Shown here piece by piece: positions 5,897-17,042 of a stretch of 32,312 bases of DNA. A model generated the notes under the pieces. The model was not told the origin of the DNA and ran no database searches. It saw nothing but the letters and a program-made list of their open reading frames with translations. This DNA is from Clostridiaceae bacterium (GTDB lineage: Bacteria > Bacillota > Clostridia > Acetivibrionales > DUMC01). Location: assembly GCA_012840075.1 (NCBI GenBank), contig DUMC01000038.1:1-32312 (forward strand). The letters run 5' to 3'. The position numbers were made by a program, and so were the translations under genes. Numbering within the stretch: position 1 is the first letter of the stretch; the number at the start of each line of letters is the position of its first letter.

Positions 5897-6469
5897 ATAA
5901 ACCCTGCAAATGCAAAAGGTGCCGGAAATGAAAGAGATACCAAAATGAACTTTGAAGAATGTTATTTATAATATTATCATGAGATATTAAAGCATGTCAT
6001 TTTCATACTGGGCAGATATCCCGATGCGGAAGACATTGTACAAGAAACTTTCATCAAGCTTTATGATGTTTATCCCCAAGTTTCATTCGTACGTACATGG
6101 CTTATAAAGGTATCTACACGGCTTGCATACAATTACCTGAGAAATAAAAAAATTGAAAAAAGCAAATATGAGGATATGGTTGAATCTAAGTCATCAAATA
6201 TGATTTCGATTGAAGATGCAGCTGTCATAAATACTGAAATGAGAATGATCAGAAAGATTCTTGACGGCATGAAACCTCGCGATAGAATATGCCTGCTTCT
6301 TAAATACTCAGGTTATACTTACAATGAAATAGCCGATATGCTAGAAATAAAAAGAACCTCAATTAGCCAGATACTTTCACGGGCTCAAAAAAAATTCATG
6401 AAAAAATACAATAAGGAGGTGCAAAATAATGAAATGCCCGTCAGAAAATATACTGATAGAATATATTGA
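5897..6469 (+). pseudogene. ECF sigma factor, decayed (lost start, in-frame stop)
   Basis: One frame from 5897 to 6469 encodes a typical small ECF sigma factor. Region 2 includes YPDAEDIVQETFIKLYD, followed by TWLIKVSTRLAYNYL. The region 4 helix-turn-helix is GYTYNEIADMLEIKRTSISQILSRAQKKF. Two lesions are visible. The codon at normal distance from the RBS (GGGGGAG, 5885-5891) is ATA, not ATG, and codon 25 is TAA (5969-5971), between CYL and YYHEIL. The next in-frame ATG (5945) still precedes the stop. The ATG at 6176 would yield only region 4. A functional sigma factor is therefore unlikely without suppression or a sequence error. The end overlaps the anti-sigma gene by 41 nt, as in intact sigma/anti-sigma operons. 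Confidence 0.75.
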
Positions 6470-7621
6470 TAATGAAGTCAGTTTGGATTTAAGAAATAAA
6501 ATTGACAGTCATATTCTAGTATGCGAAAAATGCCGTAATCGTTATATTCAGTTAAAAGAAGAAAATGTCTTTATTAAAAATAAATTAACAAATTATTACA
6601 ATTTTATAGATAAAAACATAAGAGTTGCACAAAAACTGTATTTAATTTTAATTATGCTCATAAATCTGCAATTCTCAAAGAGAAAATCTCTAATCCGGAA
6701 GGACAAGAAAAATATTGTAATTTTAAAGATGCGTATAATATTTTGTTACGATATAAAAAAATAATAGCTACACTTTGTATAATTGCAGTGTTAGCCATAT
6801 GTACGTCAATTTCACCTGTCAGAAATGCAATTGCGGTTGCGCTAAGAGTTTTCAAAATAGGAAATATTGAGGATATAAGAATAACTTATGAAGACTTAAA
6901 AGAAATTCAAAGACAAGCTGAAACGGGTAAAGAAATAAATATTGATAAAATCGGTAAAATAAAATTCTTGGGTGGAGAATATATACCTAACGTCAGTTTA
7001 GATTATGTAAAAAAAGAAATAGATTTTAACTTGTTGACAACCGGGATACCCGAAAATTTTAATGCATTATCTACTCCTACAATACTGGAATTTACACCTA
7101 ATGTAAAAAGCTTGAATAAAATAATAAAGTCATATGGTGGAAGCAAAATGCTTCCTGAGAATGTAGATGGAAAAAAAATAATAATCAAGTCAACACATTC
7201 TGTTTATTCAAGCTTCGTAGTAAAAGAAGATATGTATGCCAGTTCATTTTACCTGAATCAAATGGGTATACCGGAAATAATAGTTCCTGATGGTGTGGAT
7301 AAAGAAAAAGTTACCGATGCGTTGATTGATCTTGTTATCATATACCATAATTTTATGACTCAATTGATAACTATGAAAAACATTGAAGATGAAGCTAAAA
7401 CTCCCATCTGGGAGTCAAAAATTGAAGAATGTATTATTAATAATAATAAGGGATATTTTATGACCGTAAGTAATCCTGCTGCCGATTCCGAACACTATCT
7501 TATATTTGGTTGTATTAATAATACAATTTTCTGCCTGGAGACTAACAATACTAGCAAAAAACCTGAGAGTACAGAATGGTCTAAAAAACAACTAATAAAG
7601 ATCGCTGAATCACTAAAGTAA
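6429..7621 (+). pseudogene. Zinc-finger anti-sigma factor with large extracytoplasmic domain, frameshifted
   Basis: The gene starts at ATG 6429 after the excellent RBS AAGGAGGTG. The first part has the zinc-binding anti-sigma motif H-x3-C-x2-C (HILVCEKC, about residues 28-35). That frame ends at 6764 in unconvincing sequence. Protein-like coding resumes in the -1 frame from about 6635 (NYAHKSAILKEKISNPEGQEKYCNFKDAYNILL). It runs through one membrane helix (IIATLCIIAVLAICTSI) to 7621. A one-base deletion between 6611, where the second frame has a stop, and about 6660 explains this; the A5 run at 6631-6635 is a likely site. The outer domain of about 270 residues (GNIEDIRITYEDLKEIQ and onwards) is not one I can name. 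The ORF starting at 6743 is otherwise open, so this may be recent decay or a sequence error. Confidence 0.65.
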
Positions 7622-9539: not shown

Positions 9540-9860
9540 CTATATATCCAAAAGGGATATTACATTAATTACGGGTTTTTCGTATGGATGTACTTTCTTT
9601 ATAGTTTCTACCGCAGCTTTGCAGATTTCCTTTTTACATGTAAATTCTACTTTAGCTTCCTCTGCTTCAAAAACCTTTCCCGTTTCTCCCAGGTATGGAT
9701 TAGCTCCGTCAAGAGGTCTCCAGGAACCTTTTACCTTTGAAACAGACATGCAGTAATCGTAACGTTCATCAATTGTAAGAGCTCCTATTTTATTTAATTC
9801 ATCTCTCAATGCATTAACATATTCTTCAGGAATAAAACACTCTATCTTAACCCAGCTCAT
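9540..9860 (-). CDS. Small NIF3/YqfO-type domain protein
   Basis: The 106-residue protein corresponds to the PII/CutA-like ferredoxin-fold domain found inserted in YqfO/NIF3 proteins and also as a stand-alone family. Diagnostic features are the opening WVKIECFIPEEYVNALRDELNKIGA, the central GSWRPLDGANPYLGETG and the HPYEKPVINVISL ending. The HPYE motif is usual in this family. Biochemical role is unknown; metal or small-molecule sensing has been suggested for relatives. ATG 9860 is preceded by GGAGG. It lies upstream of serS on the same strand but 390 nt away, so co-transcription is uncertain. Confidence 0.75.
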   Translation of the reverse strand: MSWVKIECFIPEEYVNALRDELNKIGALTIDERYDYCMSVSKVKGSWRPLDGANPYLGETGKVFEAEEAKVEFTCKKEICKAAVETIKKVHPYEKPVINVISLLDI

Positions 9861-10156
9861 AAATAATCCTCCATTTTAACATTATTTGCATTTTAACAAG
9901 TTCAATTACAACAAATTCATTCACCATAAATTTGTATAATTACCATAAATTTTATCAATTTTACATTTTTGCAAATTACCATAAATTTGTAATAATATAT
10001 TTAATTAATGTAAAATAATAGATTTAATTAATGTAAAATAAAATAATCTGGTTATAATTATTGCCAATTATAATTTTATAATTATTACTAAATTCATCAT
10101 AGTACATATATCTTATAAAAGCAAGTCTATAAACAGGTTTCAGATTTATACCCCTA
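9861..10156. other. AT-rich divergent spacer with repeats
   Basis: No gene is visible. ACCATAAATTT recurs three times (from 9923, 9942 and 9978). A 23-nt unit beginning ATTTAATTAATGTAAAATAA is duplicated at 9999-10021 and from 10022. The region separates the NIF3-like gene (minus) from the CNNM gene (plus). Confidence 0.6.
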
Positions 10157-10185
10157 TTGACTTAAAAATGTTAATATGCTATTAT
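10157..10185 (+). promoter_or_regulatory. Sigma-A-type promoter of the CNNM-family gene leader
   Basis: TTGACT (10157-10162) and TATTAT (10180-10185) are 17 nt apart, a near-consensus vegetative promoter. Start of transcription is expected near 10192, giving a leader of about 345 nt before the TTG start at 10537. Confidence 0.7.
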
Positions 10186-10230
10186 GTTTTTTGAAACTAA
10201 GGTTCATTTTTTAAGGAGTGTTTTGTTTAA

Positions 10231-10356
10231 GTGGACGATGTACCTTTGCCTGAACGATGCATAAATGCTTACAGGCTTAAATACAAGAAAGCTGTGATAA
10301 AAATTTTATATATGCGGCATTTAGATGAGTATGGAGAATATTCTGTATTCATCTGA
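10231..10356 (+). CDS. Possible 41-residue leader peptide
   Basis: A GTG (10231) lies 12 nt after AAGGAG (10213-10218) and opens a 41-codon frame (VDDVPLPERCINAYRLKYKK...) ending at TGA 10354-10356. The end of the frame runs through the long hairpin at 10312-10365, so translation would disrupt it. This could be a leader peptide controlling readthrough into the CNNM gene, or chance. I do not recognise the peptide. Confidence 0.2.
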   Translation: MDDVPLPERCINAYRLKYKKAVIKILYMRHLDEYGEYSVFI

Positions 10357-10369
10357 GTGCCGCATTTTG
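10312..10369 (+). terminator. Long intrinsic-terminator-like hairpin in the CNNM leader
   Basis: ATGCGGCATTTAGATGA (10312-10328) pairs with TCATCTGAGTGCCGCAT (10349-10365) over 17 bp with two G-U pairs. The inner sequence continues the stem almost to a 4-nt loop. Four T residues follow (10365-10368). It sits about 170 nt before the transporter start, so it would end transcription early unless antiterminated. Confidence 0.6.
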
Positions 10370-10536
10370 GCATTTATTTACTATTAATACAACTTTTGTG
10401 GTTTCATCCTTGTAATTTTATTTGACAGGATGTGTCTTGGCAACGTTGCTTTTTTAACACAGAATGATTTTAAAAAATTAGATAAATGTGAAAAATTTAT
10501 AAATAAAATCATAATGAATCATGGGAGGTTGTCTTT

Positions 10537-11898
10537 TTGTCTGAGGGAGACTCAATAACGTGGCAGATACTTTTACAACTCTTTTTGATCTTTGTTAATG
10601 CAATATTTGCGTGTGCAGAAATTGCAGTCATTTCCATGAATGACAGCAAGCTTGCAAAACTTGCTGCAGCAAATGACAAACGTGCGTTAAGACTAGCTAA
10701 ATTAACCGAACAGCCTTCACGTTTTCTTGCAACCATACAGGTAGGTATCACATTGGCCGGTTTCCTTGGCAGTGCTTTTGCAGCCGATAATTTTTCCGAT
10801 AAATTAGTAGACTGGCTTGCCGGTTTTAATTTGAAAATACCTCTTCGCACTTTGGATACAATATCTGTTATTGTAATTACCATGGTGTTATCATACTTTA
10901 CCCTTGTACTTGGAGAGTTGGTCCCTAAGCGTGTTGCTATGCGATACGCAGAAAAACTTGCTCTTACAATGTCAGGGATAATTTTCTACTTATCAAGGAT
11001 ATTTTCACCTGTTGTCACATTATTAACTGCATCTACCAACGGAGTTTTGAAAGTCCTGGGTATAGATCCCAATGCAGAGGATGATGAAATTACAGAAGAA
11101 GAAATCCGCATGATTGTCGATGAGGGAAGTGAGAAAGGCGCCATAAATGATGAAAAAAAGGAATTGATCCATAATGTATTTGAATTTGATGATAAAACTG
11201 CTGCGGATATAATGACTCATAGGACGGAAGTTACCTTATTATGGCTTGAAGAAACTGACGAGCAGTGGGAAAATACCATTTTTGAAAGCCGGCATACTAT
11301 GTATCCTGTTTGCAGTGAAAGTACTGATAATATTATCGGTGTTTTGAATGCGAAAGATTATTTCCGGCTAAAAGATAAATCCCGCGAAAATATTTTAAAG
11401 TACGCTGTAAAACCTGCATACTTCGTTCCTGAAACAGTGAGGGCTGATATATTGTTCTCAAATATGAAGAATACTAAAAATCACTTTGCAATTGTGTTGG
11501 ATGAATATGGAGGTATGAATGGTATTGTAACCATGAATGATTTATTAGAACAGCTAGTCGGGAATTTGGACGATGATGCATCGACACCTGAAGAACCTCC
11601 TCCTATTGAGCGAATTGATTCAAATACCTGGAAGATAGCCGGAACAACCCCACTGGAACTTGTTTCAAAACAACTTGGTGTGCAATTACCGGAAAATGAT
11701 TACGATACTTTTGGAGGTTTTGTTTTCGGACTATTGGGCAGTATTCCTGAAGACGGCAGTACTCCTGAACTAGAAGAATATGGATTATATATAAAAGTAA
11801 CTGAGATAAAAGATCATCGCCTGATTAAAGCTATCGTTTGTCTTTCAGGAAATAAAAACCAAAAAGAGCAATCTGTAGTAACAGAAAGTTTTACTTAA
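10537..11898 (+). CDS. CNNM/CorC (HlyC) family membrane protein, putative divalent cation exporter
   Basis: 453 residues in the usual order. An N-terminal DUF21/CNNM transmembrane domain (about 1-190) includes NAIFACAEIAVISMND and the conserved GELVPKRVAMRYAE. A CBS pair follows (about 205-340: IMTHRTEV..., VLDEYGGMNGIVTMNDLLEQLVG). A C-terminal CorC/HlyC domain ends the protein (about 355-440: WKIAGTTPLELVSKQLG, DTFGGFVFGLLGSIPEDG). Homologues such as Bacillus MpfA export Mg2+ or related cations, gated by CBS-bound nucleotide; the older label hemolysin is misleading. Start is TTG 10537, 6 nt after GGGAGGTT. The long structured leader suggests control at the RNA level. Confidence 0.85.
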   Translation: MSEGDSITWQILLQLFLIFVNAIFACAEIAVISMNDSKLAKLAAANDKRALRLAKLTEQPSRFLATIQVGITLAGFLGSAFAADNFSDKLVDWLAGFNLKIPLRTLDTISVIVITMVLSYFTLVLGELVPKRVAMRYAEKLALTMSGIIFYLSRIFSPVVTLLTASTNGVLKVLGIDPNAEDDEITEEEIRMIVDEGSEKGAINDEKKELIHNVFEFDDKTAADIMTHRTEVTLLWLEETDEQWENTIFESRHTMYPVCSESTDNIIGVLNAKDYFRLKDKSRENILKYAVKPAYFVPETVRADILFSNMKNTKNHFAIVLDEYGGMNGIVTMNDLLEQLVGNLDDDASTPEEPPPIERIDSNTWKIAGTTPLELVSKQLGVQLPENDYDTFGGFVFGLLGSIPEDGSTPELEEYGLYIKVTEIKDHRLIKAIVCLSGNKNQKEQSVVTESFT

Positions 11899-13207: not shown

Positions 13208-14743
13208 TTATTTTACAATTAAAGAACTTCCGGTCATTTCCTCAGGTTTTTCCACTCCCATTATATCCAGCAAAGTAGGACTAATATCTGCTAATCTACC
13301 TTCTCTTAATTTAACATCTCCCATACCGATTAAAATCAAAGGCACTACATTTGTTGTATGAGCTGTATAAGGTCCTCCGGTCTCATAGTCAATCATCTGT
13401 TCTGCATTTCCGTGGTCAGCTGTAATTATTGCAACTCCTCCCTGCTTGAGAATTGCAGGTATAATCTTCCCAAGACAGACATCAATTGCTTCTATTGCAG
13501 CTTTTGCAGCTTCGAATACACCTGTATGCCCAACCATATCGGGATTTGCAAAATTCAAAATAATCACATCGTATTTTTGTGAATCTATTCTTCTTAAGAC
13601 TTCCTCAGTAACTTCATAGGCACTCATTTCAGGTTTTAAGTCATAAGTGGGCACTTTAGGTGATGGAATTAACACTCTGTCTTCTCCTTCGTAAACCGTT
13701 TCAACTCCTCCGTTAAAGAAAAAGGTAACATGAGCATATTTTTCAGTTTCAGCAATTCTTAATTGAGTATACCCTAATTTGCTAATATATTCACCGAAAG
13801 TATTGTGCAAACTTTCCGGTTTAAAGGCCACTACTACATTCTCAAAAGTCTTATCATATTGAGTCATGCAAACGTAATGTACCGGAAAGTAACCTTTCTC
13901 TCTTTCAAAACCGGTAAAATTCTTCTCTGTAAATGCTCTTGTAATCTCTCTGGCTCTATCCGGTCTGAAATTAAAGAATATTATTGAATCATTTTCTGAA
14001 ATTGTTGCAACAGGCTTATCTCCATCCATTATAACTGTGGGTTTTACAAACTCGTCAAATTCTTTTCGTGCATAAGACTCTCTTACTGCTTCCTCCGCAC
14101 TCTTGGCAGTTAATCCCTTACCAAACACCATGGCATCATAAGCCAACTTTACCCTGTCCCACCTGTTATCTCGATCCATAGCATAATATCTGCCCATAAC
14201 TGAAGCTATTTTTCCACAACCGATTTCACGAATCTTGTTTTCAAGCTCTTTTACATACCCCAATGCACTATCAGGTGGAACATCTCTGCCGTCAAAGAAG
14301 CAATGAACGTATACATCCTTAAGCCCTTGCCTTTTTGCAAGTTCAAGTAATGCATACAAATGGGTGTTATGGCTATGAACTCCTCCATCTGAAAGCAGTC
14401 CATATAAATGCAGCTTTGAATTATTCTTCTTACAATTCTCGATAGCGTCCAAGAATTCTTTCTTTTCAAAGAAATCTCCGTCTTCAATGGACTTTGTTAC
14501 CCTGGTAAAATCTTGATATACGATTCTGCCTGCTCCTATATTTGTATGGCCGACTTCGGAATTTCCCATTTGTCCTCTTGGGAGACCTACATCCATGCCA
14601 CTGCATTTGATTATTGTATTAGGATATTGAGAAATATATTTATCAAAATTAGGCTTATATGCAGCTTTTATTGCATTTCCTTCTTCTCTTGGATTTATTC
14701 CAAAACCATCAAGTATTATCAATGTTACTAATCTGTCTTTCAT
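13208..14743 (-). CDS. gpmI: 2,3-bisphosphoglycerate-independent phosphoglycerate mutase
   Basis: Interconverts 3- and 2-phosphoglycerate in lower glycolysis using two Mn2+ ions and a phosphoserine intermediate. From ATG 14743 it is 511 residues, the usual family length. D12 lies in IILDGFGIN, and the nucleophile Ser62 lies in [14 protein letters not shown]. Later metal ligands lie in [12 protein letters not shown] and [11 protein letters not shown]. The reading frame stays open 90 nt further upstream, but that extension runs back towards the repeat cluster. AAGGAGAG 9 nt before 14743 fixes the start. It follows pgk-tpiA at 355 nt, with a terminator and repeats between, so it probably has its own promoter. 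Confidence 0.95.
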
Positions 14744-14809
14744 ATTTATATTACTCTCCTTACTTCGAGGATGAATTTCTCTTTTTTGAACAAAGAAACA
14801 ATTTCCTTC

Positions 14810-14938
14810 AGACAAGGGACGTTTTTTAGACAAGGGGACGGTTCTTTTTTAGACAAGGGGACGGTTCTTTTGTCTTGATGAAATTAAGGTGAGACGCGAG
14901 AACCGTCCCCTTGTCTTCCCTTGTCTTTCCTTGTCTTT
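14810..14938. repeat. Cluster of REP-like palindromic repeats (GGGGACGGTTCT family)
   Basis: AGACAAGGGGACGGTTCT is present at 14828-14845 and 14851-14868, with a degraded copy from 14810. Its perfect reverse complement lies at 14899-14916, so 14851-14868 and 14899-14916 can form an 18-bp hairpin with a 30-nt loop. Two more CTTGTCT units follow. The cluster lies in the gpmI leader. Another copy is at 26561-26585. Such repeats are common in clostridial genomes and resemble REP elements moved by Y1 (RAYT) transposases; no such transposase is in this window. Confidence 0.75.
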
Positions 14939-14948
14939 AAAACTCTTA

Positions 14949-14981
14949 AAAAAAGGGGACACTTACAATATCCCCTTTTTT
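14949..14981. terminator. Two-way intrinsic terminator after pgk-tpiA
   Basis: AAAAAAGGGGA (14949-14959) pairs with TCCCCTTTTTT (14971-14981), with T runs on either strand. On the minus strand it lies about 120 nt past the pgk-tpiA stop codon and upstream of gpmI. Confidence 0.8.
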
Positions 14982-15098
14982 CAATTGCTCTAAACAGTAA
15001 CTTTTTTATAGGAAAATTACCGTTAGTTTTAAAAACCAGCGGTTAGATATTTAATTAAGCTTGGTATTCTGCATTAATTAGCACTAATAATTATTTTT

Positions 15099-17042
15099 TT
15101 AGCATTTTGTATAATTAACTATACATGTAAATTCATCTAATTTTAAGCTTGCTCCGCCAACAAGACCGCCATCAATATTAGCTGAGTTAAACAGGTCGGA
15201 AGCATTGGAAGCATTAATACTTCCACCATATTGTATCCTCACTATTTCAGCAATTTCTTTTCCATAAAGCTGTTCAATAGTATTTCTGATTATTGCACAT
15301 ACCTCTTCAGCTTGCTCAACTGTTGCAGTTTTTCCTGTTCCTATAGCCCAAATCGGTTCATAAGCTATAACTACTTGTTTAACCTGTTCTGCAGTTAAGC
15401 CTAATAAAGCTATCTTAACTTGATACCTTACAAGATCTTCAGTAACACCTTGTTCTCTTTGGGTTAAAGATTCACCAACACATATGATTGGCTTAAGGCC
15501 ATATTTGAAAGCTGCATGAACCTTCTTGTTAACAGTTTCATCAGTTTCAGCAAAGTACTGTCTTCTTTCGGAGTGACCTATGATGACGTATTCTACTCCT
15601 AATTCTTTTAGCATAGGTCCGGATACTTCTCCTGTATAAGCACCTTTTTCTTCCCAATGCATGTTTTGAGCACCTATTTTGATATTTGAACCGGCAGCTG
15701 CTTCCACGGCTGCAGGAATGCATACAAAAGGTACACAAGCTACTACTTCATCTTTGGTATCCGCAACTCTTGATTTAAGGTTGTTAATAAAATCAGCGGC
15801 TTCCTTAGGTGTTTTGTTCATTTTCCAGTTTCCCGCTATGATTTTTTTTCTTGGATTCTTATCTAATAAAACGGCTATTCCTGGCAATTCTCTTCCTTCA
15901 AGGAACTCAAGAGATGCTCCTCCACCGGTTGAAATATGTGTTATTTTATCAGCATAACCCAATTGTTCTATTGCTGCAGCAGAATCACCACCGCCGACTA
16001 TTGAAACAGCGCCTGATTCAGCAACTGCTTTTGCAATCTCCTTGGTTCCATGAGCAAAATTAGGAAATTCAAATACTCCCATAGGTCCGTTCCAAACGAT
16101 AGTCTTAGCTTTCATTATAACTTTCTTGAAATCTTCCACCGTCAAAGGACCTATATCCATACCCATCCAGCCGTCAGGCATATCGTCAGAAGGCACGTAC
16201 TTTGTTTCAGTATCATTTTTGAACTCCTTGCCGACAATGCTACCTACCGGAAGATGAATTTCAACGCCTTTCTCCTCTGCTTTTTTCATTAATTCTCTTG
16301 CATAATCAAGCTTGTCATCTTCACAAATTGAATTACCTATCTTGTATCCTTTTGCTTTAAGGAATGTATATGCCATTCCTCCGCCTATAATCAAAGCATC
16401 TACTTTGTCAAGTAGATTTTCAATAACGCCTATTTTATCCGAAACTTTTGCTCCGCCTAAAATAGCAATAAAAGGACGTGCAGGATTTGATAATGCTTTA
16501 CCCATTATTTCAATTTCTTTTTTAATCAAGAATCCGCAGACTGCTGGAAGATAATCTGCAACTCCTGCAGTTGATGCATGTGCTCTGTGAGCCGTACCGA
16601 AAGCATCATTTACATAAATCTCAGCAAGGCTTGCCAATGCTTTTGCAAATTCCGGATCATTTTTTGTTTCTTCTTTATGGAATCTTACATTTTCAAGAAG
16701 CAGAACTTCTCCTTCTTTAAGATTTGCAGCCTTTTCTTTGGCGTCTTCTCCTATAACGTCCTTAGCCATTATAACTTCTTGATTAAGTAGTTCCGAAAGT
16801 CTTTTAGCAACCGGTTTCATGCTGTATTTTTCTTCAAATCCTGACTTTGGCCTTCCGAGATGTGAAACAAGAATTGTTTTAGCCTTATTATCTATCAAAT
16901 ACTTTATTGTGGGCAATGCTGCGACTATTCTTTTGTCATCGGTAATATTTCCGTTTTCATCCTGGGGAACATTAAAATCAACTCTTACTAAGACCTTTTT
17001 ACCTTTTACATCGATATCTTCTATGGTTTTTTTGTTTAGCAT
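15099..17042 (-). CDS. pgk-tpiA: Bifunctional phosphoglycerate kinase / triosephosphate isomerase fusion
   Basis: A single 647-residue frame carries two complete glycolytic enzymes. Residues 1 to about 395 are Pgk ([40 protein letters not shown], ending [10 protein letters not shown]), catalysing 1,3-BPG plus ADP to 3-PG plus ATP. Residues about 398-647 are TpiA (AGNWKMN with the catalytic Lys, GHSERR with His, [13 protein letters not shown] with Glu, YGGSI). The joint is [18 protein letters not shown], with no stop codon. The AGA-AAA-AAA-ATC joint holds an A8 run (complement of 15842-15849). Pgk-Tpi fusions are known from Thermotoga; most clostridia have separate adjacent genes. ATG 17042 follows AGGAG at a rather long 14 nt. 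gapA lies upstream, gpmI downstream. Confidence 0.93.

Follow-up and report, generated by a model that had tools for sequence, protein, structure and literature searches.

How bacteria switch on the genes for Mg2+ efflux is largely an open question, and it is raised in a concrete form by a gene of the CNNM/CorC transporter family in the stretch of clostridial DNA analysed here (32,312 nucleotides, hereafter the window). The gene stands behind a leader of about 345 nt, as an earlier note on this DNA had said; that note described the leader as structured RNA of riboswitch or attenuator architecture in front of a putative divalent-metal exporter, and named control by a leader peptide as an alternative only. 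The question is which of the two, the RNA or the peptide, is the conserved element, and to what it could respond. We consider it rather probable that the leader is a ribosome-based attenuator, in which intrinsic ribosome destabilization (IRD) senses Mg2+ and the exporter gene is turned on at high Mg2+.

It has been reported that acidic residues together with proline near the N-terminus can abort translation, that Mg2+ counteracts this effect, and that the EPDP sequence of MgtL exploits it (PMC11282234; PMC9718836; PMC11552253); acidic residues 2 and 5 of mgtQ have been described to act similarly (PMC8092293). Furthermore, Mg2+ efflux has been linked to several of the CorC-domain proteins characterized so far, an IRD sequence has been described at the start of CorC/YbeX, and corC is expressed more strongly in high Mg2+, while the mechanisms governing mgpA and corC are said in the same paper of 2025 to remain unclear (PMC12421838). 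Among the matches listed in a search of the open-access literature (titles and starts of abstracts, with few subscription papers and no preprints) none described leader peptides upstream of CNNM genes in Clostridia, and the main text of a survey of short open reading frames (ORFs) in S. aureus mentions neither mpfA nor CNNM nor CorC (PMC13009471).

The CNNM gene and its leader in the window

Table 1. Positions of the features of the CNNM gene and its leader in the window
Feature	Position	Strand	Basis
Sigma-70-type promoter, TTGACT-17-TATTAT	10157..10185	+	sequence scoring; predicted transcription start near 10192
Shine-Dalgarno (SD) AAGGAG of the leader ORF	10213..10218	+	sequence
Leader-peptide ORF, GTG start, 41 codons, (M)DDVPLPERCINAYRLKYKKAVIKILYMRHLDEYGEYSVFI	10231..10356	+	ORF listing; similar ORFs before the CNNM genes of relatives
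Codons 2-9, DDVPLPER, acidic/proline segment; proposed Mg2+-sensitive ribosome-destabilizing stretch	10234..10257	+	third-position bias in 12 leaders
Hairpin of 24 bp in which the leader ORF ends; putative intrinsic terminator	10312..10365	+	folding; counterparts in relatives
Weak U-tract after the hairpin	10366..10378	+	sequence; tail score 3.39 (range 2.8-5.7 among 52)
SD GGGAGGT of the CNNM gene	10523..10529	+	sequence
CNNM/CorC-family transporter gene, TTG start, 453 aa	10537..11898	+	Pfam PF01595, PF00571 and PF03471 above gathering score

The product of the gene contains the CNNM transmembrane domain, one CBS match above the cut-off and the CorC_HlyC domain, which bears out the earlier assignment of this frame; the NCBIfam models PaeA, GldE, PRK11573 and CorC match it only below their own cut-offs. 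Judged by its family, the protein is probably a Mg2+ exporter. It shares its upstream intergenic region with a divergent gene (9540-9860, reverse strand), which has a weak CutA1-like (divalent-cation tolerance) match just under the Pfam cut-off. Elsewhere in the window, genes for a short sigma-70 region 4 protein, a zf-HC2 zinc-finger protein and a 292-aa protein without a Pfam match lie at 6176-7621 on the forward strand, a possible sigma/anti-sigma unit (zf-HC2 as in anti-sigma factors), and at 13208-17042 on the reverse strand a phosphoglycerate mutase gene adjoins a fused phosphoglycerate kinase/triosephosphate isomerase gene.

The near-consensus promoter that had been claimed was found again. 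It agrees with the consensus at 10 of 12 bases, and a TG precedes the second hexamer. Since 12 promoter-like sites were counted across the window against 6.5 in shuffles, this promoter taken alone is weak evidence; it is credible because relatives place a promoter in the same way (see below). The 41-codon GTG frame with its ribosome binding site likewise runs into the hairpin as had been described, with the stop codon (10354-10356) inside the 3' arm, and a GGAGTG element is repeated in most of the 12 nearest leaders in their alignment.

As for the hairpin, an outer stem of 17 bp had been claimed, and the actual structure is stronger: the stem is uninterrupted over 24 bp, with a loop of 6 nt and a folding energy of -36.2 kcal/mol (z -8.9), a stability that was equalled by 0 of 200 shuffles. 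The T-run noted after it does exist, but it is a poor one, TTT(T) GGCA TTTATTTA, and makes a weak U-tract (TTTTGGCATTTATTTA). From the 3' end of the hairpin a further ~160 nt, in which no element was recognized, lead to the CNNM gene. When the leader of the window was folded, a 9-bp long-range pairing appeared between 10261-10269 and 10369-10377 (AUAAAUGCU with GGCAUUUAU, one G-U), which in this single fold would cover part of the U-tract.

Similar leaders before the CNNM genes of relatives

We have compared the regions upstream of CNNM genes in a set of 133 regions, made up of those of 29 CNNM homologues, a further 28, 65 of 66 that were fetched in addition, and 11 of 68 named loci; L119, which lacks the N-terminus, and L199, with 231 nt, were left out. 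The wider homologue search contributed about one region per genus, and an order-wide search for CNNM genes gave nothing beyond the earlier homologue set. After two duplicates were dropped (L029 is identical to L165, and L075 to L184, over the stretch compared), 131 regions remained. As a composition criterion, which was fixed after a first look at the peptides, we required an acidic second residue (D or E), four or more D/E/P among residues 2-9, an SD and a length of 8-80 codons. ORFs of this kind were found in 40 of the 131 regions and in 0 of their 131 reverse complements, and 60 dinucleotide shuffles gave a mean of 0.73 and a maximum of 4; these regions are related, and the counts are accordingly not independent trials. 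Two of the 40 (L159 and L232) were removed by eye as pieces of ordinary genes, and 15 leaders were added by eye to the other 38, giving 53 leaders, which fall into 21 labelled families plus five leaders without a family label.

The frequency of leaders varies with the identity of the CNNM protein to that of the window, being 22/28 at 60% or more, 5/13 at 50-59%, 22/55 at 43-49% and 4/35 below 43%. Under the criteria used, 78 of the 131 regions have no leader, including six of the 28 nearest (L096, L100, L157, L159, L161 and L166). Among these six, L166 is a plausible missed leader (MEDSTDGDNPRIW...), and L159 apparently has an ordinary gene just upstream; L111, L166 and L240 are further likely leaders outside the count. 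When 59 named CNNM loci were scanned, 48 with spirochaete, alphaproteobacterial or other labels had no ORF judged comparable; some ORFs at these loci hold at least three D/E/P, but no acidic pair at the start.

Leaders that resemble MDDVPLPERC... of the window are MDDSPLPERYVLMLVINMVILL (G004), MDDSPIPERWYIK... (G041), MDDSPLPERSKNYLRYLSMLI (G201) and MDDSPVPERSIIYIKKIIVYLLI (G300). A second CNNM group has leaders such as MDDIPEDIR..., MDDYPADIR..., MDDNPEDT... and MDDDPADVD..., and others, such as MSDSSDSDSEPPSPQ, MDEGDDGSAGPDNRPAPGRR and MDYSDSSDGGKPP, keep the composition and not the sequence. Residues 2 and 3 are both acidic in 46 of the 53 leaders, and 33 have the exact form DDxP. By position, D/E is found at residue 2 in 94% and at residue 3 in 92% of the leaders, and P at residue 5 in 75%, although the start was partly selected for, since 38 of the 53 were chosen by a criterion that itself demands D/E/P at residues 2-9. 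At residues 9-26 D/E drops to 0-11%, and the length of the ORFs varies from 14 to 78 codons.

Searches with the leader as a whole recovered little. Five leaders tried against NCBIfam and Pfam gave no match to a peptide family. For the full 41-aa peptide, searched against 148 relatives, no match beyond the window had an E-value below 0.03; the weak ones came from 22 further genomes, and the best of them (L003), the only one inspected, has in-frame stops and was rejected. With the leader DNA, one relative among 60 genomes was found at E 1.1e-5 (G041, upstream of its own CNNM gene), and E-values up to 1 were reached in 53 of the 60, which is noise.

A promoter scoring at least 10/12 lies no more than 75 nt upstream of the short ORF in 47 of the 53 leaders; in composition-shuffled stretches such a site was present in 10 of 265. 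The short ORF therefore probably opens the message, with only ~20-50 nt of RNA between the predicted transcription start and the ORF.

A more independent test than the related upstream regions is offered by counts of the motif over whole genomes. In 119 genomes, an SD followed by RTGGAYGAYNNYCCNNMNGA occurs at 12 places, 10 of which are directly upstream of CNNM genes; of the other two, one lies inside a 529-aa ORF, which we take to be a dockerin-bearing cellulase, and one has no following ORF of 100 aa. The reversed control gave one place. In 291 genomes, an SD followed by MDDSP occurs at 16 places, eight before CNNM genes and eight within ordinary ORFs (reversed control, five), so that all eight of the SD-preceded MDDSP short ORFs stand at CNNM genes. 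The leader motif is thus linked near-exclusively to CNNM in the genomes searched. A stricter form of the motif, searched in 398 genomes of the phylum, was found at three places, all within longer frames, with three in the reversed control; in this form there is no sign of the motif beyond the class.

Comparison of the peptide start, the RNA fold and the hairpin

The first codons look like protein-coding sequence. In the 12 leaders of the MDDSPLPER type, the pairwise differences at codon positions 1/2/3 are 97/64/257 over codons 2-9 (175 synonymous against 123 non-synonymous codon differences) and 240/300/295 over codons 10-16 (28 against 415), the differences in the latter being inflated, because no alignment was made beyond codon 9. 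In the 20 leaders of the second group the values are 138/111/387 over codons 2-5 (233 against 249); the bias is weaker over codons 2-8 (265/384/624; 281 against 624) and absent over codons 9-20 (1100/1173/1177; 130 against 1718), with the same inflation in the later codons. Because the third-position bias is confined to the first codons, the first residues look selected as protein and the rest do not. The GTG frame that had been put forward as an alternative therefore holds the conserved element, namely the encoded start of the peptide.

A conserved RNA structure, on the other hand, was not found. No Rfam family matches at gathering score anywhere in the window, which agrees with the remark of the earlier note that no known metal riboswitch consensus could be recognized; a permissive threshold gave 15 matches in 10100-10600, all far below gathering score and nine of them to microRNA models, and 20 related loci yielded nothing but two tRNAs. 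The M-box (RF00380) has no match in the window, and a search of the genome to which the window belongs gave none at E 0.001. RNAalifold, applied to leader alignments of 12 and 20 sequences, predicted two pairs in each, none of them changed on both sides. The region 10190-10380 of the window does fold beyond its shuffles (z -5.2), which can be accounted for by the hairpin alone. The folded domain proposed ahead of the hairpin is weak in the window fold and has no conserved structure in either alignment. The comparative folding that had been suggested as a check thus speaks against a structured RNA as the main feature, and this headline is not supported, since there are no covarying pairs, only ~20-50 nt precede the ORF, and it is the peptide start that is conserved. 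The attenuator part of the earlier description stands.

A hairpin with a U-tail follows in 52 of the 53 leaders, against 81 of 159 dinucleotide shuffles, and with a stricter score in 41 of 53 against 16 of 159; in 48 of the 53 the hairpin is better than in the leader's own three shuffles. The distance from the start of the ORF to the hairpin is 15-172 nt (median 88, 52 leaders), and in all 52 the ORF reaches or nearly reaches it: the stop lies in the 5' arm in 34, in the loop in three, in the 3' arm in one (the window), beyond the hairpin in 11 and 3-8 nt short of it in three, and in no case more than 8 nt before it. The two other frames end short of the hairpin by more than 8 nt in 37 (frame +1) and 47 (frame +2) of the 52 and reach or cross it in 15 and 5, respectively, frame +2 being a biased control in that GAT GAT codons create TGA there. 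Covariation in the terminator helix was little in the one alignment analysed: one pair is changed on both sides, which was matched by 427 of 500 shuffles, the covariation score was reached by 24 of 500, and helices displaced by +1 to +3 form pairs almost equally well. In the second leader group (L105, L109, L112, L101, L107 and others) shared C-terminal RRP/PRP residues overlie the 5' arm of the terminator (AGAAGGCC, CCAAGGCC), and these residues may reflect base pairing rather than a function of the peptide.

A possible Mg2+-responsive attenuator and other readings

These observations can be combined in the following scheme. The promoter would start the RNA ~20-50 nt upstream of a short ORF that opens with an acidic, proline-rich segment. 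At low Mg2+, ribosomes would drop off on the DDVPLPER stretch by IRD; the RNA downstream would be free of ribosomes, the hairpin would form, and transcription would stop before the CNNM gene. At high Mg2+, ribosomes would pass this stretch, reach the stop codon within the hairpin and keep the hairpin open, so that transcription would enter the exporter gene and the exporter would be made under Mg2+ excess. As the ORFs run to or through the hairpin, a ribosome completing the ORF reaches it, and early drop-off leaves it free; if the hairpin terminates, the sign is fixed, in that complete translation means read-through. We infer the direction in Mg2+ by joining the published IRD effect with the Mg2+ efflux by CorC proteins, which gives an exporter off at low and on at high Mg2+. 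This predicted direction would suit an exporter and be opposite to that of MgtL.

Several points count against the scheme. In some Gram-positives it is doubtful that the ribosome is coupled to the polymerase. The U-tract of the window is weak, 78 of the 131 regions are without a leader, and the terminator shows little covariation. Di-acidic residues alone are reported to be insufficient to destabilize ribosomes (PMC11282234), laboratory tests of IRD are described with runs of ten residues, by comparison with which the acidic stretch of the leader is short (PMC9718836), and whether Mg2+ is sensed via mgtL translation or via the RNA is described as not fully settled (PMC11552253).

Among known systems, the M-box (ykoK), a Mg2+ riboswitch, also attenuates a transporter gene in dependence on Mg2+; unlike the attenuator proposed for the window it does so through an RNA aptamer, with output off at high Mg2+. 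MgtL, the peptide encoded in the leader of mgtA, a Mg2+ importer gene of Salmonella and E. coli, is alike in being a short ORF in the 5' leader of a transporter gene, with an acidic/proline N-terminus and with ribosome stability as the proposed Mg2+ sensor (PMC11282234, PMC11552253), and differs in shutting off an importer at high Mg2+ through Rho, whereas the leader here has a probable exporter, an intrinsic-type terminator over the end of the ORF and a predicted on-state at high Mg2+. CorL, the leader of corA, and mgtQ share with it the setting of Mg2+ transporter expression by translation of a small ORF (PMC8092293, PMC11552253); the former is described as Rho-dependent and the latter as translational between two genes, both for importers of Enterobacteria. 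YoaL ahead of mgpA/yoaE, with the IRD start of CorC/YbeX, is similar in that CorC-domain genes are suggested to be raised at high Mg2+ via translation of a leader or N-terminus; YoaL overlaps the upstream region of mgpA, and no terminator is named in the passage concerned (PMC12421838). Set against the MgtL/CorL type, the clostridial leaders have the short ORF, putatively translated, with third-position bias in its first codons and a Mg2+ substrate suggested by the family of the target; where that type has Rho-dependent termination with alternative leader structures, and an importer as target, they have a terminator-like hairpin with a U-tail (52 of 53) and a CNNM/CorC target read, from its family, as an exporter. 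Our guess is that MgtL and these leaders are a case of convergence rather than of common descent.

Other readings of the leader have to be weighed against the Mg2+ attenuator. Attenuators of the trp/ilv type are built in this way, with a terminator that the leader ORF overlaps, and the ribosome could be stalled by a shortage of charged Asp or Pro tRNA, or by a small molecule at an arrest peptide; we consider this very improbable, for there is no run of regulatory codons longer than DD, the target is a CNNM and not a cognate biosynthetic gene, and arrest peptides conserve the arrest site, whereas conservation here is N-terminal and leaders such as MSDSSDSDSEPPSPQ and MDEGDDGSAGPDNRPAPGRR keep composition alone. 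Little credence is likewise given to the view that the ORF encodes a small protein made constitutively, or is what remains of a duplicated CNNM start, and that the hairpin serves in RNA processing or stability: the similar starts of several CNNM proteins (DDNPLL, DSEPLL) and the weak U-tract of the window would fit it, and it is opposed by the conservation of the first residues only, by the range of lengths and by the position of the stop, which in 52 of 52 leaders is inside the hairpin, past it or no more than 8 nt short of it.

An ion-sensing riboswitch, with an aptamer ahead of the terminator and the ORF incidental, is suggested by the long leader and hairpin before a metal-transport gene and by the fold of 10190-10380. 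This reading was set aside on the Rfam and RNAalifold results and the conservation of the ORF, with its third-position bias and in-frame openness; there is also little space upstream of the ORF, and we hold it to be highly unlikely. Somewhat more weight, though still that of an unlikely case, falls to the same leader-peptide attenuator answering to polyamines, to general cation balance or to how much of a helper factor, for example EF-P or an ABC-F protein, is present. The best NCBIfam match of the CNNM protein is the polyamine exporter PaeA, below its cut-off (240 of 500 bits), and the ABC-F protein EttA is reported to act on MgtL (PMC11282234), against which stands the tie of characterized CorC-domain proteins to Mg2+ efflux (PMC12421838).

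Returning to the Mg2+ attenuator, what we call new here is a putative IRD-type leader peptide in a new lineage, with a probable exporter as target, an intrinsic-type terminator and a predicted, inverted output. We give somewhat better than an even chance to the wider view that these leaders form a Gram-positive leader-peptide family, present in no fewer than 21 families of a single class, in which the Mg2+ dependence of the ribosome acts as sensor and is coupled to an intrinsic terminator, turning on a Mg2+ exporter when Mg2+ is in excess. This would be a separately evolved mirror image of MgtL; sensing would lie entirely with the first residues, and the remaining codons would only lead the ribosome into the terminator. 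The leader would be a concrete and cheaply testable answer, for these Clostridia, to how Mg2+ efflux genes are switched on, and a compact element for reporters that are on at high Mg2+; it also suggests that evolution has on more than one occasion made a sensor of the destabilization of the ribosome by the nascent chain, with either sign of response.

Two further arrangements were seen in the relatives. In L029 (identical in L165) two successive short ORFs precede one CNNM gene, the first, MDADPHLCNF..., crossing a terminator-like hairpin and being followed by the second, MDDESHCCCCGNDFSCW..., as if two sensors stood in series. In addition, the apparent starts of some CNNM proteins are acidic and proline-containing like those of the leaders (DDNPLL, MDDKDPILWQ), for example in L028, L096, L097, L035, L037 and L054, and also in spirochaete-labelled genomes without a leader; by analogy with CorC of E. 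coli, the beginning of the CNNM gene itself may serve as a further checkpoint for Mg2+.
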